Source: Curtobacterium ammoniigenes NBRC 101786 (GTDB lineage Bacteria > Actinomycetota > Actinomycetes > Actinomycetales > Microbacteriaceae). From it: a stretch of DNA of 64,000 nt. Of this stretch, positions 17,401-36,639 are shown piece after piece. The position numbers and the translations under genes were made by a program. Where the stretch lies: NCBI RefSeq assembly GCF_001571045.1, contig NZ_BCSV01000001.1, positions 620,001 through 684,000 on the forward strand, read 5' to 3'. Under the pieces are notes generated by a model, which was not told where the DNA came from, did not search any database, and saw nothing but the letters and a program-made list of their open reading frames with translations. Position 1 is the stretch's first letter. Each line of letters starts with the position of its first letter.

Positions 17401-17843
17401 CGCGTGCCCGGGGCGTGGAAGACCCGCGCGAGCGTGACCGGCTCGTCCGCGAGATTCTCGTAGCGCAGCAGGATTCCACTCCAGGTCGCGCGCGGGCGCA
17501 GGTACGTCGTCGTGGCCCGGTCCGCGCGCTCGTCGGCCTCTTTGGTCCAGGCTCCGCGCACATAGCTCATGAGCGTGCGGTCACCCTGCCGCGAGGCGCC
17601 GTCCTGCGCGGCCGCGTTCAGCTTCAGCCAGCGGTCGGGCGTGAGCACGGCCGCGATCGCGTCGAGCAGCGAGGATTTCCCAGAACCGGACGCGCCGGTG
17701 AACAGATGGCCAAGACGTGCCACGTCCACCGCGACAGCGCCCGAGAACGTTCCCCAGTTGACGAGCTCGATGCGGGCGAGCCGCCACTGGCCGACGTGGC
17801 TCGAATCGGACTGGATCTCGTCGTTGGAGAACAGCATCGTCAT
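14490..17843 (-). CDS. jetC: Wadjet protein JetC (SMC/MukB-like ATPase)
   Basis: At 1117 residues this is a full-length SMC-type ATPase. Walker A GASGSGKSS is at residues 50-58; the ABC signature LSGGQ is near 1000 and Walker B IVLDEAFD near 1034. Between them are long Ala/Glu/Arg-rich coiled coils around a central hinge-like globular part (about residues 450-700). JetC forms the loop-extruding motor with JetA and JetB, which detects small circular DNA. The gene overlaps jetB and jetD by four bases on each side. Confidence 0.97.
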   Translation of the reverse strand: MTMLFSNDEIQSDSSHVGQWRLARIELVNWGTFSGAVAVDVARLGHLFTGASGSGKSSLLDAIAAVLTPDRWLKLNAAAQDGASRQGDRTLMSYVRGAWTKEADERADRATTTYLRPRATWSGILLRYENLADEPVTLARVFHAPGTRTDSSALKDARLFLRGELELLSLKPHVENGIDARRMTTALPSALITTSGKHGRFHERVTRQFGFRGDTTLQLLHKTQSAKNLGTLDALFRGFMLDLPGTFARSDNAVEQFTELDRAHAHVVDLRRQADALGRVDASITAFDAASAIEADATRLRDAVEPYTATFKLNLAREALAPARATLARAAAALREAERTQQLASDALETARARVRDEGGARVELLQAQVDTAEADQNAVATRLAELTRDLDSIGAPAPSDAAQFAELVASAIAEGAHPIAALDYKIQDAASEARRTLEQLDAQLKALRDHRSNLDPRLLSARRYLAQSLSVPETTLPFAAELVSVIPDHAEWRGAIERVLTPFAPTLLVPDAHLAAVRRAADSRHLGVRLVMEAVPVSVEEPRRPRDPRSLVHRVAVADGWAAAYVRRRIATEYDYACVANPDEFDDIDRGVTVTGLVKRAARRYEKDDRSAVTDATRWVLGGDIDARLEALLVLRRQAEAAQLTTAEVVARASVERDALITRRTVFLRVAHLTWDQVDVASAERVTEARRGELHKLTSGSATLREAQQAQELAAEQCRVAESEVKRAQGDEAIAGKAVELVQASIDELEAARVEPVSAELAEDLGARFRAERRSLSLETVDAVARVVLSKLSHEKDAAGRRVRDAEAAFAGRAAEFRSRWPAVASELTIEIADRNGYRELLKGILERGLPDKVGEFRRLLRERSRDVVAHLLGDLRDAPGLIRERILPVNASLGRSPFEGADTFLEIDVKTRRSVEVEEFLAELRRIVEGNWADESERGAEQRFEVLQRVIGRLGSKDRVDLDWRTRVLDTRLHVSFLAREKNSARRVLRVYDSAEGLSGGQRQKLVIFCLAAALRYQLTEEEDDVPKYGSIVLDEAFDKADSRYTRNAMEVFRAFGFHMILATPQKLLQTLEPYVGAITSISNPDRRASRLANVVFDVADASPRPHAAEAETRA

Positions 17844-18499
17844 TCGTCTGCCCCCTGAATCTCGCGCGCGTCGCTCGGCTCTCCCGCGCCTTCGCGTGCG
17901 ATGCGCTGGTACTCAGCGGTGATGGCGCGCACCTGATCGGCGTCGACCAAGAGCCGCAGCACGGGGGAGATTTCGGCGCGATCTTCGCCGACGGGGTGCA
18001 GCACGCGCAGCTTGTTCTGCATCTTGTGCCACGACGAGCTGACCCGGCTCGTGAAGTCCTTCTCGTCCCGATCGGCGGTGCGGAACACGGCGAGCTGCTC
18101 GAAGACCTCGGCTTGCCCGACGATGACGCGCCCGCCCCCTTCCTCACTGAGCAGGGTTTGGCGCAGCACCAGCAGCATCGCGGTATCGAGGAACGTCAGC
18201 GGCTCGGAGCGGACCGCGCGGGGCGCGCCTTCCGCAGGAGCGTTGCGCACGAACGCGAATTCGTTGTCGGGGTCGAGGACGAGTTCGAGGAAGAGGTCGG
18301 CCAGGCGGGAACGGATGACGTCCTGATCGCTCAGCAACACGGACCACAGCTGGGCCTCGCGGGCCCCGGAAAGATACGGGCCGCGCACCAGGCGCAGCAG
18401 TACCCGACGCGCCCGATCGGGCAGCGCGCCGGTGTCGGTCGGCCAGAGGCTCGTGTTCGTCGTCTCCTCGGCTGAGCCGTCCAGTGGAGTCTCGGTCAT
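17840..18499 (-). CDS. jetB: Wadjet protein JetB (MukE-like, DUF4194)
   Basis: The 219-residue protein matches the MukE-like winged-helix subunit of Wadjet by size, position and content: an N-terminal RARRVLLRLVRGPYLSGARE segment, FLDTAMLLVLRQTLLSEEGG in the middle and VSSWHKMQNKLRVLHPVGED toward the end. It links the JetA kleisin to the motor. It overlaps jetA and jetC by four bases, which implies fixed subunit ratios through coupled translation. Confidence 0.95.
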   Translation of the reverse strand: MTETPLDGSAEETTNTSLWPTDTGALPDRARRVLLRLVRGPYLSGAREAQLWSVLLSDQDVIRSRLADLFLELVLDPDNEFAFVRNAPAEGAPRAVRSEPLTFLDTAMLLVLRQTLLSEEGGGRVIVGQAEVFEQLAVFRTADRDEKDFTSRVSSSWHKMQNKLRVLHPVGEDRAEISPVLRLLVDADQVRAITAEYQRIAREGAGEPSDAREIQGADE

Positions 18500-19947
18500 A
18501 CAACCGCTCCGGTGAATCGATGAGCGGCGACCACGGCGGTGCGATCGACCTCGTCGACTCCGCGCCAGCGGAGCACTTCAGGCTCGTCGTCGATGGTGCC
18601 CTGGTCCGCGGCTAGTGCGAGAAGGCCGACGACGCTGCCCACACCCTGGGTCGCGGGGTGTCGGTCGAGCACATCTGCCACGGTGCAGCTTCGAAGTTCG
18701 GAGAGTACGTCGTTGACGTTGCGGGTAAGCTCGTCGAAGTCGATTTCGGTTTCGCGAGCAAGGGCGCGCAGTTCCTTGATGTTCGCGGTCTCGGTCTCCT
18801 GTATCGGCACCTCAGCGGTCGCCGCGAACTCGGCAGGATCGTGCAACTCGAGCGCTCCCGCGCTTGACATCGAGACCGCTGAGAGATCGAGCGCGACGCC
18901 GACGGGATGCCACGGTCGGGTGTGCGCGGCCGCCACGACACCGGCGTGCTGCGCCTCGCGCAGCAGCGTCCGCAGGACCCGGTCGCGCTGATAATCCTGC
19001 GATTGCACATAGCGGCGCAGTGCTCGGGCGAACAGGGTGATGACGTCGTGGATTTCGGCGCTGCGGCCCTTCAGCGTCGTGAGGAACGAACGCAACGCAC
19101 GTCGTTCGTCGGGAGAGAGCGTGTGTGCGAACCTTCGGTCGAGAATCCGGCGGATGTCTGCCTCGAAGGCCGCGCCGAGCGCGGGGTCGAGTACGAGCTG
19201 CGAGAACGCCGCGAAGCTGCGGCCCGCATCGGAGTCGGAGATGTGGTCGATCCCGCGAAATACCTCATCGACCACCGCGGCTTGTGAGGCATCCGACTCG
19301 ACGATCTTCGCCCGCAACGAGGCGTTGAGCGCCTCAAATTCGGCACGTACGCGTGCGAAGTCGTCTGGTACATCGGCGGCCTGGGCGAGCAGGTCGCGCA
19401 CCTGCTCGAGCGCTCGATCCCCGTCAAGTGCGGCCTCCTCGCCAGAACGCAACTTGGAGATGCGCTGTTTGACCCGCTCGATCTCTTCTTCGAGAAGAGC
19501 GATGCGGGTACTCACATCGGGGTCGGTGTCGATTGCCAGGCGGCGCAACTGCGCAGCGAGGCTCGCGAGCCGCGACTCGGTGACGCTCGAGCGAGGGGCC
19601 GCGCGGGCCTGCAGGAATCGGATCGCCGCGATCGCGTCTGGCGAGAGCTCGAGTGTCTCGCCGCGCGCCTCGGACGATGGGCGCCGCACCAGGAAGCCGG
19701 CGGAGCGCCATTCGCTGCAATAGCCCTTTGCGCTGAGCGGCAGGACGAAACCTTGCACACGCAGGCGCTCAAGGTCGGCATCGAGGCGCTCGTAGAGCTC
19801 TTCGGCGCCGATACGGCGCTCATCACCGCCCAAATGCACGCCCAGGAGGCCAGCGATCAGCGGGGCGTTGTCGGCGCGCAGAAGGCGCCACGCAGCGTCT
19901 CGCTCAGCGACGTGCGCGAGTTGGAGTGCTTGGGCGACGGCGGGCAC
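18496..19947 (-). CDS. jetA: Wadjet protein JetA (MukF/kleisin-like, DUF3375)
   Basis: The 483-residue DUF3375 protein begins at GTG 19947; the family N-terminal signature AAWRLLRADNAPLIAGLL lies about 20 residues in, which supports this start although no strong ribosome site is seen. The middle carries a coiled coil (IALLEEEIERVKQRISKLRS) and a YVQSQDYQRDRVLRTLLREA helix typical of the family. JetA acts as the kleisin closing the JetC ring. It is the first gene of the operon. The frame stays open upstream into an IS3 relic, so the native promoter region may have been altered. Confidence 0.95.
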   Translation of the reverse strand: MPAVAQALQLAHVAERDAAWRLLRADNAPLIAGLLGVHLGGDERRIGAEELYERLDADLERLRVQGFVLPLSAKGYCSEWRSAGFLVRRPSSEARGETLELSPDAIAAIRFLQARAAPRSSVTESRLASLAAQLRRLAIDTDPDVSTRIALLEEEIERVKQRISKLRSGEEAALDGDRALEQVRDLLAQAADVPDDFARVRAEFEALNASLRAKIVESDASQAAVVDEVFRGIDHISDSDAGRSFAAFSQLVLDPALGAAFEADIRRILDRRFAHTLSPDERRALRSFLTTLKGRSAEIHDVITLFARALRRYVQSQDYQRDRVLRTLLREAQHAGVVAAAHTRPWHPVGVALDLSAVSMSSAGALELHDPAEFAATAEVPIQETETANIKELRALARETEIDFDELTRNVNDVLSELRSCTVADVLDRHPATQGVGSVVGLLALAADQGTIDDEPEVLRWRGVDEVDRTAVVAAHRFTGAVV

Positions 19948-20695: not shown

Positions 20696-20730
20696 TGGGG
20701 CTGCGTATCGCCTCCGCTCACTCCCACCAG
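20692..20730 (+). repeat. array-associated tail, copy B
   Basis: CGGATGGGGCTGCGTATCGC followed by CTCCGCTCACTCCCACCA directly follows array B and overlaps the last codons of the nuclease-like gene. It matches 12690-12728 at most positions. Confidence 0.7.
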
Positions 20731-21767
20731 TGGTCGTCGGGGACGGTCTGTCCGATGCTGTGGCGGAGGATCGCTTGTCGAAGTTCGGCCCACGGGACGG
20801 GTTCGCCGGCGAGGCGTCGCAGTGTTGGCAGGCCGATGCTCTTTCCAACGGCTGCGTCGTCGAGTGCGCTTCTGCCGAGGACGAAGAAGTCCCACTGGCT
20901 AATGTCGAGCGGGTCGTATTGGTCGTGGCGTGTAGCGGTTTGCACGGCGAACACGTAGACGTGTGCGTTCAGCTGCCTGCCGGCAGGGTCGTGTCCGTGT
21001 CGCGGGTGGTAACGGGTGCCGCGGAGGCCGCTGAACTCGATGCGCGAGAGCGCGCGCTGTTCCCACGCCTGCAAGTACGCGGACGATTTCACTTCGACTC
21101 GGATCCGCTCATCGACGAGGAGGTCGTATGCGTCCCATTCGATTCGGGCAGCGTCGCCGAGTCCGACCGCTTGGGCGACGAGGAACTCCGCGAGATACCC
21201 GCGAGCGTTGTTCATCCGCAGGTCCGAGAGCGCAAACCGCCAGAAGTCCGCGACGGTCGCGTCCAGTCCGCGGAACCGTGCTGTCCCGTCCACCGCTCCT
21301 CGCGGCGGCGGCTGGATCCATTCCTCCACGGCCCGGCCAGGCTCGGCGGCGGAACTCGGATTCGCGTCGCCCGCGCTCCCGAAGACAGCACCCTCATCCG
21401 CGCGAACGGGCAGCGCGGGCGTCTGCACGGAGCGGCCGCTCCCGATCCACGGGCCGTCGTGGGCCACGCAGGCTTGGCAGCGATCAGTTGCGACCAGCAA
21501 GGGGTTTCCGCCTCCAGTCGCGGGGAGGCGTTCTCCGTTTCCGAGTCGTTCCCAAGCGTCCGGGATATCGAGGTCCGCCCATCTGCTCATGTCCGGGTCG
21601 TCGCCTTTGTGATGACAGCCATCGAAGTGCGCCATCCCCCGGGGCGAGACTCGCAGCATCGCGGACGCCACCAACGCACGGTGCGCTTCCTTCGCGGCTC
21701 GTTCCTCCGGACCACGTCCGTGCGGGCAGAACAGGTCGTCCATGTCATCGAGGTCGCACCACATCAT
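20718..21767 (-). CDS. PD-(D/E)XK nuclease-like protein
   Basis: The C-terminal third has a nuclease-type core: YDLLVDERIRVEVKSSAYL near residue 225, with D followed by ExK, preceded by a helix GYLAEFLVAQAVGLGDAARI. The N-terminal part has scattered Cys/His pairs (CPHG, HFDGCHHKGDD, RCQAC) that might bind zinc. The start is uncertain: the frame opens at 21992, but codon quality improves from the double ATG at 21767/21764. I suggest a restriction-like or defence nuclease from its motif and neighbours. It is divergent from the gene at 22050. Confidence 0.6.
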   Translation of the reverse strand: MMWCDLDDMDDLFCPHGRGPEERAAKEAHRALVASAMLRVSPRGMAHFDGCHHKGDDPDMSRWADLDIPDAWERLGNGERLPATGGGNPLLVATDRCQACVAHDGPWIGSGRSVQTPALPVRADEGAVFGSAGDANPSSAAEPGRAVEEWIQPPPRGAVDGTARFRGLDATVADFWRFALSDLRMNNARGYLAEFLVAQAVGLGDAARIEWDAYDLLVDERIRVEVKSSAYLQAWEQRALSRIEFSGLRGTRYHPRHGHDPAGRQLNAHVYVFAVQTATRHDQYDPLDISQWDFFVLGRSALDDAAVGKSIGLPTLRRLAGEPVPWAELRQAILRHSIGQTVPDDHWWE

Positions 21768-22049
21768 GCGCTCATCATTCACGAAAGGGGCGACACGAGC
21801 GGTCAACACGTTCCCGAACCCTTCCCCGGCTACGGGCCCATGTTCACCGCGGGCTATGGTCCATTCGCGTACGCCGACTACACGGCAGCCGCAGTCGATT
21901 CCTACTCGCCGCGTTACCTCTCGACGGACGGCTTCGCACTCGGAGCCTGGCCGTTGGAACTCGGTCCGGCTTGTGCGAAGCCTTGGCTGCATGCTCAGAA
22001 AGTTCTTTCCGCAGTCATCGTTGACGGTGGGTCGTGGTCGAATCCCCCC

Positions 22050-22967
22050 ATGATCGAGCAGGTTGGCGACGGTACGCAGATGCGAGTGTGGAGCGATCCG
22101 GAGGAATTGGCGGCGCTGATTGTCTTGACCGCGACGGGTGGGACGGTGTGTGGATGGGATCGGAACCAGGAAGGGGGAAAGCCTGGGCGTGCTGACTTTG
22201 CGCTGATGGACGCCGCGGGCGAGCGCTGCGGGCTGCTGGAAGTGACCTCAGTTGCAGACGGCGGTTCTGAAGCGTCGATGAAGGAGCTGCGGAGGCGCAC
22301 GGGTGCGTTCGGTGGTGATCTGCGCGATCGTCGCTCCGTGCCGGGTTCGGACTTCGAATGGGTGATGCATGTGCGATCCGGAGCGCGGCTGAAACCGCTG
22401 TGGGGTGCGCTGGACGGTCTTCTTGGGGAGCTCGAGCAGGAGATCCGTCAGCACGATCGCTTCCCTGTTCACGTTCTCGCTGCCGACTCGACGGAGCCAT
22501 CCATGCTCGACGCTGTCACTCGGGATCCGCTCCGGGGGAAGCTGTTCAACCTCGGGCTGAGCGCCCTGTCCGCATATCCGCCCGCTGATGACGCGGATCG
22601 TGGACGACTCACGGTTGTCATGTCCTCGGTGTTCCCCGCAGCCACGCCGGGCGATATCACTGCAGCGGTGAACGTTGAGTTGATGAAGCGGGATAACCGT
22701 TCGAAACTTGCTGCCGCATCCGGTGGCCGCGCTGAACTGTTCGTCTGGCTCGACCGGGGTCCACTGCTCCACGCCGCATGGGACGCGGCGGCCCGCGACC
22801 CGCGGAACGCGGATCTCCCCGCTCCTACCCTTCCTGCGGAGGTCACGGGGGTGTGGGTTGCGCCGATGCCCCGGCCGAATGCGACACCGTCATCCGTGCT
22901 GTCCACGTGGTGGTACTCCACCGGCGACGCCCTCCGATACCAGCACTGGTCGTCGTTGTCGCGCTGA
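22050..22967 (+). CDS. hypothetical protein, possible nuclease relative
   Basis: The 305-codon frame opens at ATG 22050. It begins with an acidic, compact domain in which ADFALMDAAGERCGLLEVTS (about residues 46-66) resembles the D...E-x-T/K strand of restriction-type nucleases; the Lys is replaced by Thr. Later come ELEQEIRQHDRFPVHVLAAD and a Trp-rich C-terminus. I know no family. It is divergent from the nuclease-like gene with about 280 bases between them, so the pair could form one module. Confidence 0.55.
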   Translation: MIEQVGDGTQMRVWSDPEELAALIVLTATGGTVCGWDRNQEGGKPGRADFALMDAAGERCGLLEVTSVADGGSEASMKELRRRTGAFGGDLRDRRSVPGSDFEWVMHVRSGARLKPLWGALDGLLGELEQEIRQHDRFPVHVLAADSTEPSMLDAVTRDPLRGKLFNLGLSALSAYPPADDADRGRLTVVMSSVFPAATPGDITAAVNVELMKRDNRSKLAAASGGRAELFVWLDRGPLLHAAWDAAARDPRNADLPAPTLPAEVTGVWVAPMPRPNATPSSVLSTWWYSTGDALRYQHWSSLSR

Positions 22968-22969
22968 CG

Positions 22970-23275
22970 GGGTTCATGCGCGGATGTGGCTGTTTGGGGA
23001 GGGGTCGTGGCTGCGGTCGCGCGGAGGGATCCTGTTTCGGCGTTGCGGTTGGTCTCTCGGACGATGGTGATCCACGGGTTCCGGGGTGTGCGGTCTCGGA
23101 CGAGGTGTTCCGCGTCGGCGATGCTGTCGATGTGGACCCATTGGAAGTCGGTGTGGTCGTCGCGGTAGATCAGGATCTCCTCCGCTGCTGCCGGTTCCCG
23201 GGAGGGCAGCAGAAGGGTGCCCGGATGCTCCTCCGGCATTGGCCGGGTGGGCGGAGCGAGTTCGAGCAACGGCAT
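22970..23275 (-). pseudogene. probable truncated gene at the end of the unknown cluster
   Basis: From ATG 23275 about 100 residues look coding (MPLLELAPP, EEILIYRDDHTDFQWVHIDS, RNPWITIVRET). The frame then runs without a stop to 22469, directly opposite the gene at 22050-22967, where it is only a shadow. I infer that the true 3' end was lost when the neighbouring module arrived. The function is unknown; its short beta-rich body recalls the product of 25451-25984. Confidence 0.45.
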
Positions 23276-23370: not shown

Positions 23371-24312
23371 TCACGGCTGCGTGCGGAGCAGCCGGATGAC
23401 ATCGGCGAGGGGTCTCCCGGTGGTGATCCACTCGACCGGCGACACCGGGTGCCGCAGCTCCATGGGTCCGGACGGTTCGTCGGCGAGTGCCAGGTTGGGG
23501 GTGGTCATGAAGTTGGTGCTGCCGGCGGTGTCGGCCCAAGAGGCTGGCATCGCGGCGAGGAGCACGGGCAGCCCGGGCAGCAGCTCCCACCGCGGGCCGG
23601 TGGCGTCCCCGCTGTCGGCTTCCTCGTCGCTGTCCTCTGCGGAGTGGGGGTGGAGTTGCCAGGTGGGGATGCGGGTCCGGGCGCCGACGTCGAGTGCGAG
23701 CAGCTCCCGCTGCGTGATGAGCGCTTCGACGTCGTCGAGCGTGCGGTGCAGCCGGCTCGCTGTCTCGGCGACGTCGATGGAGGTGTCGAGGAGGTACGCG
23801 TCGTGCCGGTGATAGCTGTCGTGCTGCCAGGTGTCGGCGATGGTGTGTTGGGTGGCGAACGGCCAGAACGGCGCCTCCTCGCTCAGGCGGTGTTGGGCCT
23901 GCCGGGTGGCGGTGAGGAATGCGGGGCGGTCGAGTTCGCCGCGGACGTAGCGCCAGCAGTCCCGCTGCCAGATGGGGTCTTCAAGCAGGAGCGGTTCGGT
24001 GGGGGTGGTGAGGACGTGGCGGATGACGTGTTCGCGGCGGGCGACGTCGTCGGCGGGTTGCAGGATGGTGCGGATCAGCCGGTCTGCTTCCACCACCACC
24101 GGATCCGCCCGGTCGACAGCGGGCGTGCCGTCGGCGTAGGTCAGGACGTAGCCGGGTGGGAGCGGGGACGCGGCGATGCGGATCAGGACGGAACCGGACC
24201 GGTCCGCATACGCCACACCACCAGCGGAGGCGTCGGCGTCGAGGTAGAGCATGCCGAGGTATTCGTCCTCGGGGCTGTCGAGGGTGAGGTGCAGGCTCCG
24301 CAGCCGCACCAT
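23371..24312 (-). CDS. unknown protein with helix-turn-helix and shared C-terminal domain
   Basis: Starting at ATG 24312 (one-base overlap with the upstream stop, TGATG), the product has 313 residues. Near residue 200 an excisionase-like helix-turn-helix (DVAETASRLHRTLDDVEALI, then LLALDVGARTRIPTWQL) is followed by a domain ending TNFMTTPNLAL, VSPVEWITTG and VIRLLRTQ. The last part aligns with the C-terminus of the 27032-27535 product (VNTFMTSPHVLL, VTPTRWLACGG, VISILQNLD). The pattern resembles MbcA/ParS/Xre-type antitoxin C-terminal domains, which bind toxin partners; that is a hypothesis. The N-terminal 190 residues are unrecognised. Confidence 0.65.
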   Translation of the reverse strand: MVRLRSLHLTLDSPEDEYLGMLYLDADASAGGVAYADRSGSVLIRIAASPLPPGYVLTYADGTPAVDRADPVVVEADRLIRTILQPADDVARREHVIRHVLTTPTEPLLLEDPIWQRDCWRYVRGELDRPAFLTATRQAQHRLSEEAPFWPFATQHTIADTWQHDSYHRHDAYLLDTSIDVAETASRLHRTLDDVEALITQRELLALDVGARTRIPTWQLHPHSAEDSDEEADSGDATGPRWELLPGLPVLLAAMPASWADTAGSTNFMTTPNLALADEPSGPMELRHPVSPVEWITTGRPLADVIRLLRTQP

Positions 24313-25454
24313 CAACCCCCACCCCCATCCCGGCTCGTCGTGTTCCGCCCGTGGGCGCGCCAGCCCGGCGTCCGCGTCGGTGCCGCGTTCCATCCGGAAT
24401 CTGATTCTGCTGCGAACCTCGTCTGCGCGGTGGCACCGTCCGAGCGCGCTGGGTGGGGGTCGTGGCCGTGGAGGAGCCGCGTTCGGAGCTGCTCCTGCAG
24501 ATTGGTGTGGGTGGTGGTGCGGATGGTGTCGGCGAGGGCGAGCACCGGGTCGACCAGCCCCTCCCACCCGAGACTGGCTGCGGCGGTGCGGTGGATGGTC
24601 GGGTCCGCTGGCCACACCAGCTCCACCGTCGCACGCGTCGCAGGCGCGGGGCGGAACCCGTACGACTGGAGGTCGACGGGAGCGTGTGCGTAGGCGACGA
24701 GCTCCCGCGGCTCCGAAATCCCCGCATCCTGGGCGCCGTCGTGGGCGTCGGCGGTGGGGTAGCGGTGGGCGGCGGCGGGACCGGAGACGAGGACCGCGTT
24801 GGTGGTGAGCAGCGCCATCAGTTGCGCGGTCGTCGAGCCGGGATGCTCCCAGAAGCTGCTCAACCCGCCGGCCGCGCCGTAGTCACGGGTCGCGAATGTC
24901 AGCAGTGCCGCTCGGTCGGTGACGCGGAGGCGTTCGCCGGTGATGGTGACGAGGCCGTGGTCGGCGAGGAGCTGCGCCGCCTCGAGGGTGCGCGGGTCGG
25001 GAGTGTCCGCGCCGAAGGTCGGCAGCGGCATCTCGGCGACGGCCGGGTGGCGGTGGTGGAAGAAGGTGCGGGCGAGTTCGAACGCGTGCCACTCCACGAC
25101 CGTCCGCTCCGCCGACGGAGCTGCGCTCGGGTTGGGGTGGTAGCTGGTCAGCACGGCGTGTTGGTCCTCGAGGGCGAACAGCACCCCCGGCATGTCGGGG
25201 CGGGCGAGCTGCGGCAGCAGCGTTCCCGTGTCCGTGAGCACGAGCAGGGTCTCGCCGGGCGGTGCGGTGAGGGTGGCGTCGGCGAGCTGGGCATGCAGGT
25301 CCTGCTGCGGGTGGAGGTGGTGGATGCGGTAGCGGTGTCCGGTGGGGTCGCCGAGCAGGGTGGGGCCGAGGAGGACGCGGCGCTGCAGCTGCGCTTCCAG
25401 CAGCGGCAGCAGCCACGTCACATCCGTTCCCGCCGGGTCCCCGAACATGCTCAC
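24312..25454 (-). CDS. unknown protein, weak resemblance to AbiEi-type regulators
   Basis: The 380-residue product overlaps its neighbours by four bases upstream and one downstream. The N-terminal half is alpha/beta (LLVLTDTGTLLPQLAR, LFALEDQHAVLTSYHPNP). The second half includes a winged-helix-like stretch (AAQLLADHGLVTITGERLRV), VLVSGPAAAHRYPTAD, LQSYGFRP, and a final LVDPVLALADTIR. The order GPAAAxR, GFxP, DPVLALxD recalls AbiEi-like antitoxins, but no signature residue settles it. The last about 30 codons are low-complexity. Confidence 0.6.
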   Translation of the reverse strand: MSMFGDPAGTDVTWLLPLLEAQLQRRVLLGPTLLGDPTGHRYRIHHLHPQQDLHAQLADATLTAPPGETLLVLTDTGTLLPQLARPDMPGVLFALEDQHAVLTSYHPNPSAAPSAERTVVEWHAFELARTFFHHRHPAVAEMPLPTFGADTPDPRTLEAAQLLADHGLVTITGERLRVTDRAALLTFATRDYGAAGGLSSFWEHPGSTTAQLMALLTTNAVLVSGPAAAHRYPTADAHDGAQDAGISEPRELVAYAHAPVDLQSYGFRPAPATRATVELVWPADPTIHRTAAASLGWEGLVDPVLALADTIRTTTHTNLQEQLRTRLLHGHDPHPARSDGATAQTRFAAESDSGWNAAPTRTPGWRAHGRNTTSRDGGGG

Positions 25455-25984
25455 TCCGAGCTCTCGGGCACTCCAGGCTCCCCGCTGACACTGTCGACGT
25501 CGGCGTCTGGGTCGTGGTCGGGGAGGGGGTGGAGGCGGTGGATGGATTGGATGCGGGTCGGGAATCGACCCGTGTGCGTGTAGGTCGGGTCGGAGTGGAG
25601 GCGGTCGGGTTTGACGTAGGCGATTTCCCCGTCACGGCCGACCTGGAGCCGGACGAGGAGGCACAGCAACTCGTCCCCGTCCCCATACAGGGAGGCTGCC
25701 CACGTGGATGCGGTTGGGGTGAACGGCGGTGGGTTGCGGGTCATGGCGACCAGGTCCGGGGTGATCCGGAACCGGTACACGCTCCCGCTGCCGCTGACCG
25801 CTTCGTAGATCCCCGGCGGGCTGTCCTCCCGCAACACCTGCACCGGCACCCCCATCGGCGCTTCCGACGGCGCAGGCGAGGGTTCGGGACTGTTCTCGCG
25901 CCGGCCAGGCTGCCCGTTCGGTCCGGATGGTTCGCTTGGCTCGCTCCCGCCGTTCGGCTCGTTCGGGTCGGTGTTGTCGCTCAT
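25451..25984 (-). CDS. unknown acidic protein
   Basis: The 177-residue protein has a Pro/Ser/Glu/Asn-rich, disordered N-terminus of about 45 residues, then a compact beta-rich domain (GIYEAVSGSGSVYRFRITPD, LCLLVRLQVGRDGEIAYVKP) and a short Asp-rich tail. No family is recognised. It overlaps both neighbours by four bases, so it belongs to the same translationally coupled operon. A small fold with exposed disordered arms suggests a binding protein rather than an enzyme (inference). Confidence 0.6.
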   Translation of the reverse strand: MSDNTDPNEPNGGSEPSEPSGPNGQPGRRENSPEPSPAPSEAPMGVPVQVLREDSPPGIYEAVSGSGSVYRFRITPDLVAMTRNPPPFTPTASTWAASLYGDGDELLCLLVRLQVGRDGEIAYVKPDRLHSDPTYTHTGRFPTRIQSIHRLHPLPDHDPDADVDSVSGEPGVPESSE

Positions 25985-26802
25985 GGGGTGGGTTCGCTGT
26001 CGGGGATGGGGTTGCCGTTGTGGGTGATGGTCCAGGTCAAGTCGAGCCCGGATGCGCGGAGGATGTCGGTGATGGTGTCCTGCCGGGGGACGGCGAGGCT
26101 GCCGATCTCGGCGAAGAGCCGCAGCAGCGTTCCCGCCCGAGTGCGCGCATCCAATGCCAGCGCCGCCGCGTCGTCCGCGGGGAGTGTGGCGTCCGGCTCC
26201 GGATCATTCGGATGCAGGGGGACTGCTTCCAGTTGGGCGTCGGTGCTGTTCCATCGGACCTCGACGCGTTGCACGTGGTCGGTGGTGGTGTTGCGGTACC
26301 AGAGGTCCCCGAACGGTGCACCCTCCGCCATGCTCAAATCCGCCCCCGACAACACCCACCCGGATGCGTCGTTGCGGTGATCCCACGCCGGCACGAGCAT
26401 GAACGGACGGTCGATCTGGAACCCGGACAGCGGGATCTCGTTCTTCCCGTGCGCGACGTACATCCGCCTCGGCTCCTCCGCGACATGCACCGCATCGCCG
26501 GACGGTCCGGCCCCAGATGCCGACGACGGAGCATCTACTCCGTCCTCCCGCACCGCGGTCACCCCTGTTCCCTCGGCGACGGCGTCTGCGATGGTCAGCG
26601 CGCGGGTAGCTTCCCGCTGCACGGCCCGCACAGCGTCCTGCAACGACGAACCGCCGTGCATTGCGTCGGTGAATGCGGCCATGAGCAGCTGCTGCGCGGC
26701 TGCGAACTGCTCCGCACGGTCATCGTCATTTCTCGCGTCCATGTCCGGCTTCAGGGTGGTGGGTCGGTCGTCGCCGTCGGCGGGGGTGGTGTTGGTGGTC
26801 AT
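25981..26802 (-). CDS. unknown protein of the coupled cluster
   Basis: The 273-residue protein starts at ATG 26802 behind AAGGAG, a strong ribosome site. It has an acidic N-terminus, a helical stretch (FAAAQQLLMAAFTDAMHGGS), a low-complexity linker, and a beta-rich centre (RMYVAHGKNEIPLSGFQIDR, GWVLSGADLS, FGDLWYRNTTT). The C-terminus has DTITDILRASGLDLTWTITH. No family is recognised. The stop overlaps the next gene by four bases. This is the first gene of the tight cluster 26802-23371. Confidence 0.6.
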   Translation of the reverse strand: MTTNTTPADGDDRPTTLKPDMDARNDDDRAEQFAAAQQLLMAAFTDAMHGGSSLQDAVRAVQREATRALTIADAVAEGTGVTAVREDGVDAPSSASGAGPSGDAVHVAEEPRRMYVAHGKNEIPLSGFQIDRPFMLVPAWDHRNDASGWVLSGADLSMAEGAPFGDLWYRNTTTDHVQRVEVRWNSTDAQLEAVPLHPNDPEPDATLPADDAAALALDARTRAGTLLRLFAEIGSLAVPRQDTITDILRASGLDLTWTITHNGNPIPDSEPTP

Positions 26803-27031
26803 GGGTGCTCCTTCGCTTCACCACCGATATGCGCGGACCGCACCCGGAATCCGTGCACCGCAGCACGTCGCCGATGTCGAACAGCGATGCGCGGGTGAAC
26901 CGTCGATACCGGGTGAACTCGACCGATCGCGTCCCGCTGCGGAAGGTGAAGGGTCGGGGGAATTTGGCGAGCTCGATTGCCGAGATATCGGCTGCGGAGG
27001 CAAACGCTCGCGACTACGGCTGGTGTGGTGG
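26803..27031. repeat. intercistronic segment containing dispersed repeat copy 2
   Basis: This spacer holds GCTGCGGAAGGTGAAGGG at about 26937, the second copy of the sequence at 8352-8400. A minus-strand frame of 78 codons (27035 to 26799) overlaps both neighbouring genes by four bases, but its Arg/His-rich product looks like non-coding translation. The minus frame reading FPRPFTFRS has a stop shortly upstream and no start. Confidence 0.5.
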
Positions 27032-27535
27032 TCATTGCCGGTCCAGGTTCTGCAGAATGCTGATGACCGGGTCCGGCGCCCCACCGCACGCCAGCCACCG
27101 GGTCGGTGTCACCCCCTGACCGCCGACCGGGAGCAGGACGTGCGGGCTGGTCATGAACGTGTTCACCACCGCTGCCGGTGCCCGCCCCGGCAGCGCCGGG
27201 ATGACATGCTCCAGCCAGGGTAGAAACCAATACCGGGCGCCGGGCACCCCGACCGGGCGGCGCACGAACTGCCACCACGGCACCCCCAGCAGGCGCGGCG
27301 CCCAGAGGTCCCGGTCCACGATCCGGTTCCGCACATCCAGCACCGTGATGTCGAACATCCGCGGCGCCGTCGCAAGCAACACGCCCTCGCCGCTGACACG
27401 CTCCGGCGTGAACCCGAGCACATCCACACCGTCGTCTCCGCTCATCGCGGGCAGGATCTGACGACAAGCGCCCGTCTCGGCCGTCGGCAGCGGGGCATGC
27501 GGAGGTGCCGGTGGTCGGTTGGGGTCGGAGGTCAC
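27032..27535 (-). CDS. unknown protein with the shared C-terminal domain
   Basis: The 167-residue protein begins at ATG 27535. After a Pro-rich start it has a beta-rich region (GEGVLLATAPRMFDITVLDV), then VPWWQFVRRP, IPALP, VNTFMTSPHVLL, VTPTRWLACGGAPDPVISIL. The second half aligns with the C-terminus of the 23371-24312 product. The layout PxWQF ... FMTxP ... TPxxWLxxG ... V recalls MbcA/ParS/Xre antitoxin-like domains of actinobacteria (inference from pattern). It is the first gene of the cluster but is separated from the rest by the repeat-bearing spacer. Confidence 0.6.
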   Translation of the reverse strand: MTSDPNRPPAPPHAPLPTAETGACRQILPAMSGDDGVDVLGFTPERVSGEGVLLATAPRMFDITVLDVRNRIVDRDLWAPRLLGVPWWQFVRRPVGVPGARYWFLPWLEHVIPALPGRAPAAVVNTFMTSPHVLLPVGGQGVTPTRWLACGGAPDPVISILQNLDRQ

Positions 27536-28047
27536 GGGGGAACCGTATGCAGCTCAGAGGGGTCGCGTCACGGGATGCGGGCTGGTTGAGGCCAACAACA
27601 GGAACCGGCTCGCCCACCCGTGCTGCAGTCGATAAACCGTGCCGGCGAACGCCGAGGGTCCGGGAAACCCTGAATTCGTGTCCCTCTCGTCGATCGCGGG
27701 ATGAGTTGCATCGGTGGAGAGTGCCGCGGTCCGGTGGCCTCCTGCGCGATAGTGAGCGGCGCCGACCGGTTCACTCGGTTAGAGCTGTCCCGACCCCGGC
27801 GCGACACGGGGTGTGAGGGGAAGGTGTGTTTCGCCCCAGCGTGGCGGACTGTGGTGTCGACGGATTCCCGCATGCGTCTACGCCTGCGCGTGGAGCACGC
27901 TGAACGGCGTCAAGCACGTCGCGTATGGTGCTACCGATTTCGTATGGTGCTACCGATTTCACTGACGGAGAATGCGAGACGGCATCGTGGGGAACAGTGC
28001 CACGTAGGGGGCGTCGAGTCAGGGTCGGCCGCCCCCCTACTACCCGT
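27536..28047. other. gap without a supportable gene
   Basis: Open frames in this 512-base stretch lack coding character. It separates the unknown cluster from the sugar locus and contains the 19-base tandem duplication at 27923-27960. Confidence 0.55.
27923..27960 (+). repeat. perfect 19-base tandem duplication
   Basis: GTATGGTGCTACCGATTTC is present twice back to back (27923-27941 and 27942-27960). Each copy also contains the short inverted pair GGT/ACC. Two identical adjacent copies point to recent duplication or a two-site operator. Confidence 0.85.
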
Positions 28048-29697
28048 TTAGGGCACGTTCCATTGTTGCGTGAAGAGGCCGTTGCAGTCGTAGATCTGCA
28101 GCTGCGTTCCGTCCGCGGTCTGTGCCTGAGGATCATCAAGGCAGCGCCCGGACTGGGGGTTATATAGCGACCCGTCGCTGCGCGGGATCCATTGCTGACC
28201 ACCGGCGTTATCGCAGTCCCAGAGCTGAACCTTGGTGTAGTTCGCCGTTCCGTTCCCGACGATGTCGAGGCACTTGTCGTAGGCGCGGATGGTGCCATCG
28301 GTCTCGAGCGACCACTGCTGTCCGCTGGCGATGCCGCAGGTGTAGAGCTGGACCGCATTGCCATCGGTTGACGTGTTCGTGTTGACATCGACGCATTTGC
28401 CGGTGCTCCCGGGACCTGTGATTGGCCCCTGCGCCTTCGGGAGGGTCGCGGTTCCGAAGTTCGTCTCGCACTTCCCGGTCGATAGGTGGACGCCGGCGAG
28501 CATCAGGAAGCTTGAGCTTGAAGGGTCGGCGAGCAGTGGCGAACTGTAGCCAGCGCATGAGGTCTCCCCGGTGTCGTAGCCGCCGGTGGGGGAGGTTGTG
28601 ACTGGTGTTGTGATCTCATCCCAGGCGCCCGAGCCGAGGTTTCGGTTCACGAACAGGACGTGCCCTGTCTCGGGTTGAACGGTGAGTGATCCGTCCGTGC
28701 CCGCCACGACGCGTTGGCCGGAAGCGATCAGCGTGCCGTTCGCTCCTCCCGCAGGCGACCAGGTGAGGTACGGCGTGTGGAGCAGGAATCGGTTATCGCT
28801 TGTTTGAATGCGTGTGCCGAGGCTTCCAGGGTTCCAGGACTCCGCATTTGTGGTCGTCTTGATGTACACGTCACATGCCTGGTCGGGGTCGTAGCCGGAT
28901 TTGCAGTCTTCGAACGTCATCGCGTAGGAACCGTTTGGAAGATTGACCACGGTCGCCATGCCCGGTCGTTCGACACCGTTCTGAATCGCAACGTCGTACG
29001 TCTCACTGCCCCACGTTGCGCCGCCGTCGGTTGATGAAACGTGCGCTAGCACTTGGTTGTAGCCGTTGGTCGAGGGGCGCTCGTCGGAGAAGTAACAGAC
29101 CAGATCGCCGTTGCCGGCCACATCGAACTCCGGCTCCCAGATGCCGTGTCCCTCGCTGTTCGTCATCCCGGTCTCTGCGGTGCAGGAGCTGCGGTATGAC
29201 CACGAGGCGCCCTGGTTCGTGGATACGAACACTTCGATTGCCTGCTGCGTGTAGTCACCGCGGTTCCACGCGGTGCCGGCGGCGAGGATGGTGCCGGCCG
29301 GCAGGTTCCCTTCCGCTTGGGGCAGTTCGTAGAGCGTGGGTCCATCGAGATCCCATCCATGCACGGTGTCAGTGACGGTGCTGATGGGCGATGACGTCCA
29401 GGTGACGCCGTTGTCCGTGGAGCGGTAAATCGGGAAATTGGCTTTCGGTACGCTCGATCCTGAGTGATCGAAGGTCGCCAAAAGCGTCCCGTTTGCGCTG
29501 CCGTTGTGTTCGAGCCGGATGACTCGCGGATAGCTCGCATCCTCGGTCGACCCAGCAGCAGTGCTTGGTTGGTAGAGCGTGCCGCCCGACGTCGTCGCTG
29601 CCGAGGCTGGGATCGGAGTAGCGGCGAGGAAGCCGAGGGATGTCAGCAGAGCGGAGGCCGCGAGAGCGCCCGCTTTGACTCTTCTGGACAATTGCAT
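28048..29697 (-). CDS. secreted BNR-repeat glycosidase-like protein with ricin-type lectin domain
   Basis: The start is ATG 29697, with AGGAG ten bases upstream; the product has 549 residues. A signal peptide (RRVKAGALAASALLTSLGFL, cleavage near ASA) is followed by a beta-propeller with Asp-box-like repeats (STDNGVTW, STNQGASW, SSTDGGATW) as in sialidases and GH93-type exo-arabinanases. The last about 130 residues form a CBM13/ricin-B domain with QQW motifs (SGQQWSLETDG, GGQQWIPRSDG, TQQWNV). It is exported to act on a polysaccharide. The substrate is not decided by sequence. It is divergent from the GH2 gene across LacI-type operators. Confidence 0.85.
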   Translation of the reverse strand: MQLSRRVKAGALAASALLTSLGFLAATPIPASAATTSGGTLYQPSTAAGSTEDASYPRVIRLEHNGSANGTLLATFDHSGSSVPKANFPIYRSTDNGVTWTSSPISTVTDTVHGWDLDGPTLYELPQAEGNLPAGTILAAGTAWNRGDYTQQAIEVFVSTNQGASWSYRSSCTAETGMTNSEGHGIWEPEFDVAGNGDLVCYFSDERPSTNGYNQVLAHVSSTDGGATWGSETYDVAIQNGVERPGMATVVNLPNGSYAMTFEDCKSGYDPDQACDVYIKTTTNAESWNPGSLGTRIQTSDNRFLLHTPYLTWSPAGGANGTLIASGQRVVAGTDGSLTVQPETGHVLFVNRNLGSGAWDEITTPVTTSPTGGYDTGETSCAGYSSPLLADPSSSSFLMLAGVHLSTGKCETNFGTATLPKAQGPITGPGSTGKCVDVNTNTSTDGNAVQLYTCGIASGQQWSLETDGTIRAYDKCLDIVGNGTANYTKVQLWDCDNAGGQQWIPRSDGSLYNPQSGRCLDDPQAQTADGTQLQIYDCNGLFTQQWNVP

Positions 29698-29762
29698 GGA
29701 CAGTCTCCTGAGTCGCGTCGTTGCGAAGGTGTGCGAGGCGTGTCGGGTCACCGATGAACATT

Positions 29763-29776
29763 TTGCATCGTTGCAT
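29763..29776. promoter_or_regulatory. LacI-type operator, site 1
   Basis: TTGCATCGTTGCAT differs in one base from the palindrome TTGCATCGTTGCAA. It lies 66 bases upstream of the secreted glycosidase-like gene, on its promoter side. Confidence 0.75.
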
Positions 29777-29861
29777 AACGTGGAGCGTTCGGAGCGTAGC
29801 GCCCTGCGACTCGGCTTCGCAACCCTTATTGGGCGTGAGTGCAGTCGAGAGTGCATCGTGA

Positions 29862-29875
29862 TTGCAACGATGCAA
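29862..29875. promoter_or_regulatory. LacI-type operator, site 2
   Basis: TTGCAACGATGCAA is the exact complement of the consensus and a near-perfect palindrome with the central CG typical of LacI operators. It lies about 50 bases upstream of the GH2 start. Confidence 0.8.
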
Positions 29876-29925
29876 AATTGGTGATAGCGTCCGTCCACCG
29901 CCTGCCCCCACTGAAGGACCGCTCG

Positions 29926-32088
29926 ATGACGACGACCCTGCCCGCTCGTGCCACTGGAGGCGTTCAGACGCCTCTTTCAGATGTTCCGCGCCCCGAGTAC
30001 CCGCGCCCGCATTTTGATCGGAGCCACTCCTGGCAAAGCCTCAACGGTGTGTGGGATTTCCAGCGGGGCAGCGCCCCTGCAGCGCAGCGCATCTCTGAGT
30101 CGATCCTGGTGCCGTTCGCCTGGGAAACACCGCGGTCCGGGATCGGGGCGCACTGGCTGGAAGATGCACGATATCGACGCACGTTCACGGTCCCTGAGGA
30201 GTGGACAGGCCAGCGAATCGTCTTGCATTTCGGTGCGGTACACCATGCCGCGACCGTGTCTGTCAATGGCATCGTGGTCGGTACTCATGTCGGCGGATAT
30301 GTTCCCTTTGAGTTCGACATCACGGACGCGTTAGGTGCGCCCACAGCACCGGCCGACTCGCCAGAAGCGCATGCCGAGCCGGAGGCGAGAGCGTTGCATA
30401 TCGGTGAGCACGAGCTCGTTGTCGGGGTGTCGGCACCGAACGACAAGCGCTGGATCGCTCACGGCAAACAACGCAGTACGCCGCGCGACGACTACGACAG
30501 CTGCGCGTTCACGCCATCGAGCGGGATCTGGCAGCCGGTCTGGCTCGAGGCTCGCCCCGCAACGTATCTCGACGACCTCGCGCTTCAGGCCACCGAGAAC
30601 CTCGACGGACTGGTCATCGCCGGACGAGTTGCCGGTCCCGGCCGCGATTCCGCACGCATCCTGGTTTCCGTTCTGGAAGACCACGTGCACGGAAGGTCGG
30701 GCGTTGTCACCACGATTGAAGCAACCAGCGAGGAACTCGAAGGCGGCATCACCGCCGCGCTCGCTGCCCCCCGCCTCTGGTCGCCCACGGACCCCCATCT
30801 GTACCGGGTCGTTGTCGATGTGGTGTACGCGGGGAGCGCGGATCACGTGGAGAGCGAGACCGGGCTTCGATCCATCCGCACCCGCGACGGGAAGGTCTAC
30901 CTGAACGGGCAGCGAATTTCGATCCGCGGCGTCCTGGATCAGGGGTACTGGCCGGAGACGGGCATTACCGCTCCCGATGACCGTTCGTTTGTCCGCGACC
31001 TCGAGATCGCCCGGGATGCGGGCTTCAACTTGGTTCGCAAGCATCTGAAGCTCGAGGACCCACGTTTCCACCACCATGCCGACCGGATGGGGATGCTCGT
31101 ATGGGCCGAGCCTGCGTCGACGGGACGATTCTCCGCCGACTCCGCCGCCGCATTCGAGGCGCAGATCGCGCCTATGGTCCACCGCGACGGGAATCATCCG
31201 AGCATCGTCATCTGGGGTCTGTATAACGAGGAGTGGGGACTCGACTGGGCGCTCCCGGAAGATCCCGCAAAACAGGAGGCGGTGATCCGCGCCCGCCAGA
31301 TGCTGCGGAGTCTCGACCCGAGCCGGCCTGCCGTCGATAACTCCGGTTGGACGCACATCGATAGCGATCTGATCGACTGGCATGTCTATGACGAGCACCC
31401 GGCTGGGTGGGCCCGCAAAGTCGCGGAACTGGTGCGGGACGATGACCCGTCCTTTCCGGTCGCGATCGCGGTCGACGTCATCGTCGACAAGCGGCTGATG
31501 GTGGACGGGCCGGTTCCCCGGCAGGTCCCCTTCATCAATAGCGAGTTCGGTGGCGGGTGGACTTCGATCGACCGTGGCTGGAATCTGCATTGGCAGACCC
31601 AGGAACTGCGTCGGCACGACTCGGTCGCGGGGTGGGTGTGGACCGAGTTGAACGACATCGAGCATGAGAGCGCGGGGTTCGTCGCCGCGGATCGGACCAT
31701 GAAGGATCACGGCGGCCGGCCCCCGCGCTATGCAAACGGTGAGACCGCCACCGTGTTCGACATCAGTCCGGAGGCTCCGGGCCGCGACGTTGTGACAGCG
31801 ACGGGCTCGGTCGAATTCGGGGTGCACGTCTCGCACCACGGTGTCTCGCCGGTGACCGTGACCGTCGAGGCGGCGTGGGGCAGCGTGTTCTCGGAGGAGC
31901 CGGACGTGACAGACGGTGCGCCAGTCATCGTGGACACGGTCGATGTCGAACCGTTCATCCTCAGCGCGCCGGTAACCGTCGCGACAACCCTTCCCCGCCG
32001 GGTGCCGTCCGCTCGCTTGCACGTATTCCTCCGACTCGCCGACGGGACCGTGCTCGGGCGCGGAGCCGTGGACATTGTCCGCGGCTAA
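29926..32088 (+). CDS. glycoside hydrolase family 2 enzyme
   Basis: The start ATG 29926 has GAAGGA nine bases upstream; the protein has 720 residues and no signal peptide, so it is cytoplasmic. The domain order is GH2: a sugar-binding jelly roll (residues about 30-220, with WQSLNGVWDF), an immunoglobulin-like domain, then the TIM barrel. The acid/base Glu is in WGLYNEEWG (near 431) and the nucleophile Glu in FINSEFGGGW (near 539). Activity could be beta-galactosidase, beta-glucuronidase or a related exo-enzyme. It probably degrades oligosaccharides imported by the ABC system on the opposite strand and is under the same LacI control. Confidence 0.9.
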   Translation: MTTTLPARATGGVQTPLSDVPRPEYPRPHFDRSHSWQSLNGVWDFQRGSAPAAQRISESILVPFAWETPRSGIGAHWLEDARYRRTFTVPEEWTGQRIVLHFGAVHHAATVSVNGIVVGTHVGGYVPFEFDITDALGAPTAPADSPEAHAEPEARALHIGEHELVVGVSAPNDKRWIAHGKQRSTPRDDYDSCAFTPSSGIWQPVWLEARPATYLDDLALQATENLDGLVIAGRVAGPGRDSARILVSVLEDHVHGRSGVVTTIEATSEELEGGITAALAAPRLWSPTDPHLYRVVVDVVYAGSADHVESETGLRSIRTRDGKVYLNGQRISIRGVLDQGYWPETGITAPDDRSFVRDLEIARDAGFNLVRKHLKLEDPRFHHHADRMGMLVWAEPASTGRFSADSAAAFEAQIAPMVHRDGNHPSIVIWGLYNEEWGLDWALPEDPAKQEAVIRARQMLRSLDPSRPAVDNSGWTHIDSDLIDWHVYDEHPAGWARKVAELVRDDDPSFPVAIAVDVIVDKRLMVDGPVPRQVPFINSEFGGGWTSIDRGWNLHWQTQELRRHDSVAGWVWTELNDIEHESAGFVAADRTMKDHGGRPPRYANGETATVFDISPEAPGRDVVTATGSVEFGVHVSHHGVSPVTVTVEAAWGSVFSEEPDVTDGAPVIVDTVDVEPFILSAPVTVATTLPRRVPSARLHVFLRLADGTVLGRGAVDIVRG

Positions 32089-32137
32089 CCGCCGGGGTGA
32101 AGCGCTTGTGGGACCAGCGCCGGCAGACGCTTCGGGC

Positions 32138-33166
32138 CTATCGGGTCGCGCCGGCTGTGCTCTCCCGCACGACAAGCTCGTACCCGACGAAGAACTCCTC
32201 CGGCGGTTGATCGGCGTGATCGCCGAACCGTGCCATCACACGCTCCACCGCGGTCTGTGCAATGGCTACGCGGTTTGGTGCGATCGTTGTCAGCGACGGC
32301 GTTTGATACCGCGATGCCTCAATGTCATCGAAACCGACAACGGCGAGATCCTCCGGAATCCGAAGGCCCGCCTCTAACGCGACCCGCATCGCACCGATCG
32401 CGACGAGATCGTTGAAGCAGAAGACAGCATCGGGCGCCCCGTTGGGGTGCTGGAGCAGGTCCCGCATGGCGTCGGCGCCGTCGCCGAAATGGAATCGAGC
32501 GCGCGGAATGATGAGCGACTCGTCGACGGGGATGCCGCGGTCCTCATGTGCGAGGCGATATCCGGTTGTGCGCAGCTGCGCGGTCTCGCCGGTCTCATAC
32601 GGCTGGTCACCGATCGCCGCGATCCGGCGCCGGCCGAGATCAAAGAGGTGCGATGTTGCAGCGCGAGCGGCGGCGACGTTGTCGATGGCGACGTGATCGT
32701 ATTCGCTTCCGGCGACGCGCTCACCGAGCAGCACGAGCGGCTGTGCCGGATCGTGCGGGGGCAGGTCGGCGGCAGAGAGCGCCAGCGGGCTCAGGATGAT
32801 GCCGTCGAAGAGTGCCGCTGTGCCTTCACGCTGAATGAGTTCGCGTTCACGATCGGGCTCCCCGTCGGTCTGGTCGACTACCACCGTGTATCCGTACGCG
32901 CGCGCGGTGGTTACGACGGCGCGCGCGAGCTCGGCGAAGTAGGGGACGTCGAGTTCGGGGACGATCAGCGCGATCAAACCGCTTCGGCCGCTTTTTAAGT
33001 TCCGAGCGACGAGGTTGGGGCGGTAGCCGAGCGCTGCCACGGCTTCTTCGACTCGCTGCCGCTTCGACTCCGAGACCCGCGCATACCCGTTGACGACGTT
33101 CGAGACGGTACGAATCGAGACGCCGGCACGTTCGGCAACGTCCCGCAGACGCGCTGGACCACTCAC
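32138..33166 (-). CDS. LacI-family transcriptional regulator (locus 1)
   Basis: The 342-residue protein has an N-terminal LacI helix-turn-helix (RLRDVAERAGVSIRTVSNVV, then NGYARVSESKRQRVEEAVAA) and hinge (NLVARNLKSGRSGLIALIVP), followed by a periplasmic-binding-protein-like sensor domain. It is the last gene of the importer operon on the minus strand, 58 bases after the permease gene and convergent with the GH2 gene. The three TTGCATCGTTGCAA-type sites in front of all transcription units of the locus are its probable operators. Confidence 0.93.
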   Translation of the reverse strand: MSGPARLRDVAERAGVSIRTVSNVVNGYARVSESKRQRVEEAVAALGYRPNLVARNLKSGRSGLIALIVPELDVPYFAELARAVVTTARAYGYTVVVDQTDGEPDRERELIQREGTAALFDGIILSPLALSAADLPPHDPAQPLVLLGERVAGSEYDHVAIDNVAAARAATSHLFDLGRRRIAAIGDQPYETGETAQLRTTGYRLAHEDRGIPVDESLIIPRARFHFGDGADAMRDLLQHPNGAPDAVFCFNDLVAIGAMRVALEAGLRIPEDLAVVGFDDIEASRYQTPSLTTIAPNRVAIAQTAVERVMARFGDHADQPPEEFFVGYELVVRESTAGATR

Positions 33167-33224
33167 TCGGGCTCCCTTTCCGCCGTCCCCTCAGTATGCC
33201 GCGCTTCCTGTCCTCGGCGTCCGG

Positions 33225-36555: not shown

Positions 36556-36621
36556 GAGTCTTCCTATCGTCGTTGATGAAAAGGGAGCCGCTCAGAGCGA
36601 CGCCGTAACCATACGACAGTT

Positions 36622-36635
36622 TTGCATCGTTGCAA
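36622..36635. promoter_or_regulatory. LacI-type operator, site 3
   Basis: TTGCATCGTTGCAA is the perfect palindrome, 67 bases upstream of the binding-protein start. With sites 1 and 2 it marks every promoter of locus 1, so the regulator probably represses all of them. Confidence 0.8.
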
Positions 36636-36639
36636 AGCA

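Follow-up and report, generated by a model that had tools for sequence, protein, structure and literature searches.

A patchily distributed Curtobacterium operon family of putative antitoxin-derived proteins without cognate toxins

A 64,000-nucleotide stretch of the 3.04-Mb genome of Curtobacterium ammoniigenes NBRC 101786 (G000:C1:620001-684000; hereafter the window, to which all coordinates refer unless a locus is named) carries a cluster of five minus-strand genes, A to E. Our tentative reading is that the cluster belongs to a patchily distributed family of chromosomal operons whose antitoxin-derived proteins lack their toxin partners and may act as antitoxins in trans and bind DNA; we give this reading somewhat less than an even chance. 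Gene A (27032-27535; 167 amino acids, aa) ends 229 bases before the downstream gene B (25981-26802; 273 aa), from which the frames run on with overlaps of 4 bases between B and C (25451-25984; 177 aa), 4 bases between C and D (24312-25454; 380 aa) and 1 base between D and E (23371-24312; 313 aa), the frames lying at the coordinates stated in a preliminary description of this DNA. The small protein C matches no family, B has a conserved core at about residues 110-255, and D is a relative of the AbiEi family of type IV antitoxins that has no nucleotidyltransferase (NTase) partner. The product of gene A is predicted to consist of a degenerate winged helix-turn-helix (HTH) and an Rv2175c-like C-terminal domain. 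E is composite, with an N-terminal domain that we call EN (24064-24312; residues 1-83), predicted to form four strands and a helix and also encoded by three short genes in related operons, a helical segment resembling the Fic antitoxins VbhA and FicA (23875-24054; residues ~87-146) and a C-terminal half made up of a winged HTH and an Rv2175c-like domain (23371-23838; residues 159-313). Searches of the window proteins A to E against Pfam, NCBIfam, PADLOC and PHROGs gave no usable match, and the PADLOC models gave none at E≤0.1.

All five genes recur once more in the same genome and in the same order (L003:5965-10141, L003 being G000:C2:148000-167000), with the paralog of A at L003:5965-6477. 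The two copies share 84% DNA identity across a main block of 3.2 kb and 79% across a further 1.3 kb, and protein identities are 88% for A, 85% for B, 87% for C, 71% for D and 63% for E. In each gene from A to E, most of the differences between the copies are third-position changes, and dN/dS is 0.38, 0.21, 0.61, 0.49 and 0.50, respectively, indicating that the five frames are real and moderately constrained. The spacer between A and B shows no coding-frame signal in this comparison, and a search for operators found no inverted repeat common to both cluster copies. Downstream of E in the window lies a remnant of a further minus-strand gene, F (23021-23275), which retains the 5' part and has lost about 260 bases relative to its whole paralog (L003:10243-10806); F relatives are also present downstream of some related operons.

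A family search of 300 genomes with E as query returned two same-genus relatives at 34%, as well as weaker matches, and their surroundings carry relatives of B, D and E. When an E alignment was used to scan all genome contigs, 24 loci emerged, each from Curtobacterium or unclassified Microbacteriaceae. Nearly all of them have the order B - EN0 - D1 - EN1 - E - EN2 - D2 on a single strand; in a few, E or D is disrupted by a frameshift or gap. B, D, E and EN thus stand together in fixed order in most related loci, while the genes flanking the operon vary from locus to locus, and one C. pusillum chromosome carries three copies. Outside the genus, L013 encodes on one strand an A-like protein, EN, D, two B proteins, an EN with a VbhA-like stretch, and C; for C we found distant relatives only, in another Microbacteriaceae genus (L013, L067, L075). 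Among 67 genomes of the genus, E is detected at high score in 29 and B, searched for independently with the window protein, in 28, all of which are also E-positive. Of the 38 B loci, 37 have a same-strand E gene no more than 2.6 kb away, and the co-occurrence is strong (Fisher p ~5e-18; neither this value nor the genome counts are corrected for phylogeny). Conserved co-occurrence was one of the checks posed in the preliminary description, and its outcome favours the cluster. The conjugation or housekeeping system also named there is not what these data point to, since A to E fall in no Pfam or NCBIfam family and the operon is far from universal, 28 of the 67 genomes having both B and E. E relatives were not found on plasmids, phages or viral contigs, where only VbhA-like fragments were present, on two Curtobacterium plasmids. 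Genes in related loci were called with a custom script in views of 6-9 kb to each side, part of the L011 sequence consists of N, and names of flanking genes (transposase, sugar genes) were assigned by eye. On that basis, Tn7-type TniA/TniB/TniQ-like genes or a tyrosine-recombinase trio adjoin the operon at L081, L084, L087, L096, L098 and L099, and at L083 and L090.

These comparisons bear on the idea that the window cluster is what is left of toxin-antitoxin loci undergoing decay. The truncation of F, a dN/dS of up to 0.61, the degenerate HTH of A and the loss of a Fic-antitoxin motif described below would all be expected of decay. However, neither copy has a broken frame among its five genes, dN/dS stays below 1, and gene order is conserved among diverged loci, so that we consider decay very improbable.

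One link to a known antitoxin class comes from D. Window D has no Pfam match, and a contig scan with D alone as query found nothing. By contrast, a six-row D profile recovers AbiEi-type proteins from a further 17 genomes within the order, with E-values of 3e-11 to 5e-21. The conserved core of D and these outside relatives reads YPGPGG / SG..A / P.D.T, and one of three scanned D relatives matches AbiEi_2 (PF09952) at 0.0023, below the cut-off. At most of the 17 outside loci the gene that follows touches or overlaps that of the D relative and encodes a protein of ~260 aa with an invariant GG...R.T.D.D signature; AbiEii (PF08843) matches four of eight scanned products of these genes (1.7e-4 to 8.8e-4), narrowly missing the curated cut-off. 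An NTase profile strongly matches the genes beside most outside D relatives and, at the roughly 30 operon loci, scores no better than E=1.4. Across the genus it detects the NTase in 4 of 67 genomes, the window genome not being among them. The profile matches and the NTase next door show that D derives from AbiEi antitoxins, a resemblance that had been noted as weak and that is now confirmed through D's relatives. Because those relatives adjoin an NTase gene and the operon loci have none, D is an AbiEi-type antitoxin relative that has become separated from its toxin. In AbiE, the C-terminal domain of the antitoxin by itself gives antitoxicity (PMC3985639).

The middle of E resembles a different class of antitoxin. 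A weak VbhA match to one E protein in an early search was later confirmed with independent relatives: of 20 aligned E proteins, 18 match the Pfam VbhA (Fic antitoxin) model, the best at 4.3e-6, and the two E copies of the window genome do not, and the VbhA-like stretch of the E profile aligns with the antitoxin-like chain 5nh2_B (E=0.04). All 18 matching proteins contain SGYLEG, which fits the (S/T)xxxE(G/N) inhibitory motif of Fic antitoxins (PMC3667792). In addition, two genus genomes (L125, L126) encode a 63-aa protein with the sequence HSGRLEGF whose gene precedes, and overlaps by 4 bases, a gene carrying the Fic motif HPFMEGNGRTQR. Searches with this FicA-like protein reach about 26 E loci (1e-10 to 2e-13), with HSG.LEGF in common. 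Given the VbhA match, the SGYLEG motif and the match to the 63-aa protein, the middle of E either descends from a Fic antitoxin or has a common ancestor with one. No Fic toxin gene lies directly downstream of an operon E; the nearest listed one is 6 kb from any operon E, and the nearest to the paralogous L003 copy is 47 kb away. As a separate observation, a 608-kb Curtobacterium plasmid carries two tandem VbhA-family genes with a 4-base overlap and no annotated Fic gene beside them (L121:4813-5168).

A and E share their C-terminal domain. The preliminary description had picked out a sequence pattern common to both products (in A, PxWQ...LP.L...FMTSP...TP..WL..G), and it is correct: tblastn of window E against the paralogous A region gives 27% identity (E=2.6e-4), a profile of E relatives finds L003 A at 5e-7 and window A at 0.004, and P.WQ, LPxL, M..P and W...G are invariant in an alignment of eight A/E-type sequences that includes stand-alone relatives. 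The HTH proposed for one of the two products is likewise seen: AlphaFold models window E (mean pLDDT 78.5) with a winged HTH. The top PDB match of this model is Rv2175c (2kfs; probability 1.00, E=0.021, 134 columns), and a mycobacteriophage excisionase (4j2n) also matches its HTH. Compared by profile with the Rv2175c orthologs of its own genome, E reaches 87% for the HTH part only, and PF18367 (Rv2175c_C) detects neither A nor E. The C-terminal half common to A and E is thus predicted to have an Rv2175c-like fold. Membership in MbcA/ParS/Xre (DUF2384), which had been suggested for this domain, is rejected: PF09722 (Xre_MbcA_ParS_C) matches none of 20 E proteins at E≤0.5 and is not found in A, its matches in whole genomes are at chance level (the best at an E gene being L003 E, with E=1.5), and the predicted structure matches Rv2175c instead. 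Elsewhere, at L106:806-2025, a RES toxin (PF08808, 3e-12) is paired with an HTH antitoxin that is weakly matched by both the Rv2175c_C and the Xre_MbcA_ParS_C models, making it a possible bridge between the two families. Since that antitoxin partners a confirmed RES toxin, a link of A and E to RES-type antitoxins is plausible, not proven. At L127, the product (215 aa) of a gene beside an A/E-like protein looks RES-like by eye and is not matched by PF08808; we do not use it as proof. Two Curtobacterium genomes (L128, L129) carry tandem arrays of three A/E-type genes, encoding HTH and Rv2175c-like parts, with none of the other operon genes.

Such a domain composition would also fit antitoxin folds that have been repurposed as transcription factors, the operon being the regulatory module of a (formerly) mobile element with no toxin-related activity. 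Winged HTHs are predicted in E and probably in D, the fold matches of E are to Rv2175c and a phage excisionase, transposition or recombinase genes adjoin several loci (named by eye), and the window copies have lost SxxxEG. DNA binding alone, however, would not need this motif, which the other 18 aligned E proteins have all retained, and the distribution of E relatives, absent from phages and viral contigs and represented on plasmids by VbhA-like fragments only, does not suggest such an element. We therefore regard this explanation as unlikely.

The remaining proteins have no such relatives. The AlphaFold model of B shows four antiparallel strands and a long helix (core pLDDT ~90); fold searches with it returned nothing at E≤0.001, and no enzyme-like motif or fold was found. 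The best structural hint, a Pur-alpha repeat (probability 0.90 over 49 columns), is not relied on here. In related operons the EN domain, of 80-100 aa, has three short genes to itself and also forms the start of the E protein, and in the E model its strands and helix follow the same order as those of B. A profile comparison between B and EN gives a probability of 5%, which does not establish homology, and comparison of C with EN shows none. By these searches, B and EN are new protein families. The arrangement of EN, with EN0 and EN1 flanking D1, one EN fused into E and EN2 preceding D2, suggests that it is a common scaffold.

The same proteins lead to a serious rival explanation, namely that the operon is complete and has a toxin that goes unrecognised, making it a toxin-antitoxin or abortive-infection defence system in which B, C or EN would poison the cell once D or E is released or degraded after infection. 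A tight operon with translational coupling, an accessory and multi-copy distribution, and a window copy that adjoins a Wadjet system would all suit a defence role, as would B, EN and C belonging to no known family. The surroundings of the operon copies are variable and include restriction-modification and other PADLOC-listed genes, an observation not compared with a random background. On the other hand, B has no enzyme-like features, EN is present in up to four copies and is fused to the antitoxin-like E, which would be odd for a toxin, and A to E have no PADLOC match. Considering both sides, we think a hidden toxin somewhat less likely than our own reading, though a serious candidate.

How might antitoxin-derived proteins function in an operon in which neither an NTase nor a Fic gene is embedded? 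We propose that the operon proteins could form a DNA-binding complex, with B and EN serving as scaffold, that would control its own level through DNA binding. The complex could supply antitoxin activity in trans against Fic, NTase, RES or similar toxins from other elements, and its role would then be anti-addiction or anti-abortive, blunting toxins that arrive with, or act from, such elements. Potential targets exist in most hosts, as Fic proteins are encoded in 65 of the 67 genus genomes and RES proteins in 47. Fic or RES toxins that track the operon were looked for and rejected as candidates, Fic being near-universal and the association with RES (p=0.06) not significant. In the window genome no RES protein (PF08808) was detected, and the nearest RES gene to any operon is 45 kb away.

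Several observations weigh against this proposal. Activity in trans is our inference from sequence and models, and no toxin tracks the operon, with the NTase in 4 of 67 genomes and Fic in 65 irrespective of the operon. The AbiEi- and RES-type parts have no resident target in the window genome, where neither an NTase nor a RES toxin was detected, and SxxxEG is missing from both of its E copies. The structure matches have E-values above 0.001, and B, C or EN, which all lack a family assignment, could each be a toxin. With the Fic-inhibiting motif lost, at most the AbiEi-like and Rv2175c-like parts of the window copies could act in trans; in a genome that has Fic and neither NTase nor RES, these copies may act on incoming toxins only, or may have drifted to another role. 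The more specific version of the proposal, in which the operon is a dedicated multi-antitoxin system that carries the inhibitory modules of two or three unrelated toxin-antitoxin classes (AbiEi, Fic antitoxin and Rv2175c/RES-type) on a shared EN/B scaffold and protects against toxins of mobile elements, whether incoming or resident, appears to us rather unlikely as it stands. Orphan antitoxins are usually regarded as single leftover genes. If the proposal is true, a toxin-free operon of mixed antitoxin classes would amount to organised anti-addiction or toxin immunity; alternatively, it may be a way for antitoxins to turn into a novel complex with a regulatory or defence role. Either way, B and EN add two new protein families.

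Beyond F, the window cluster is followed by two opposite-strand frames, one on the plus strand without assignment (22068-22967) and one on the minus strand that weakly resembles a methyl-directed restriction enzyme (20718-21992; E=0.022), and then by a complete Wadjet type I set, jetABCD (13357-19947, minus strand), consisting of JetD (13357-14493), JetC (14490-17843), JetB (17840-18499) and JetA (18496-19947). The preliminary description was thus right that the cluster adjoins known defence genes, and its idea of an accessory system with several components and antitoxin-like domains at its centre also holds, given the AbiEi relationship of D, the Fic-antitoxin segment in relatives of E, the domain shared by A and E, and the strong co-occurrence. 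A defence function, on the other hand, found no support. The cluster has no PADLOC match and is a neighbour of Wadjet, not part of it. On the other side, about 9.5 kb of carbohydrate-related genes (~27607-37124; by eye sialidase-like, GH2-like and ABC transporter genes) separate A from a relative of gene Z (~37125-38085), which adjoins A directly in L003. Near one end of this stretch, which is absent beside L003, lies a perfect 19-base tandem repeat in two copies, CGTATGGTGCTACCGATTT (27922-27959). An Rfam search of the window from 19 to 40 kb gave no match.

Compared with known systems, the cluster is, by gene content, neither AbiE, as it has no AbiEii, nor FicTA, as it has no Fic; nor is it, by the domain and toxin searches, RES-Xre or MbcA/ParS; it is also not a PADLOC system or part of the Wadjet operon. 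It resembles AbiE (AbiEi/AbiEii) in that D belongs to the AbiEi family and that the genes of outside D relatives overlap an AbiEii-type NTase gene, and differs in that no operon of the family has an NTase within or beside it and in that D is part of an operon of 5-7 genes, occurring twice in most copies. With class I FicTA (VbhA/VbhT, FicA/FicT) it shares, in relatives' E, a VbhA-family segment with (S/T)xxxE(G/N) that matches stand-alone antitoxins overlapping Fic; unlike FicTA, the operon has no Fic gene, the segment sits inside a larger, predicted DNA-binding protein, and the motif is lost in the window copies. The winged HTH and helical C-terminal domain with PxWQ/FxTP/PxxWL recall Rv2175c, the best PDB fold match, and RES-linked HTH antitoxins, from which A and E differ in being missed by the Pfam Rv2175c_C and Xre_MbcA_ParS_C models and in having no adjacent RES toxin. 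The last comparison is with orphan antitoxins or anti-addiction modules, an established concept (PMC7192599) in which chromosomal antitoxin genes stand without a partner toxin. In the literature searched, coverage of which was incomplete, we found no description of a fixed operon of several antitoxin classes. The orphan antitoxins known so far are single genes, whereas here antitoxin-like parts of different classes are joined in one conserved operon with the new families B and EN.

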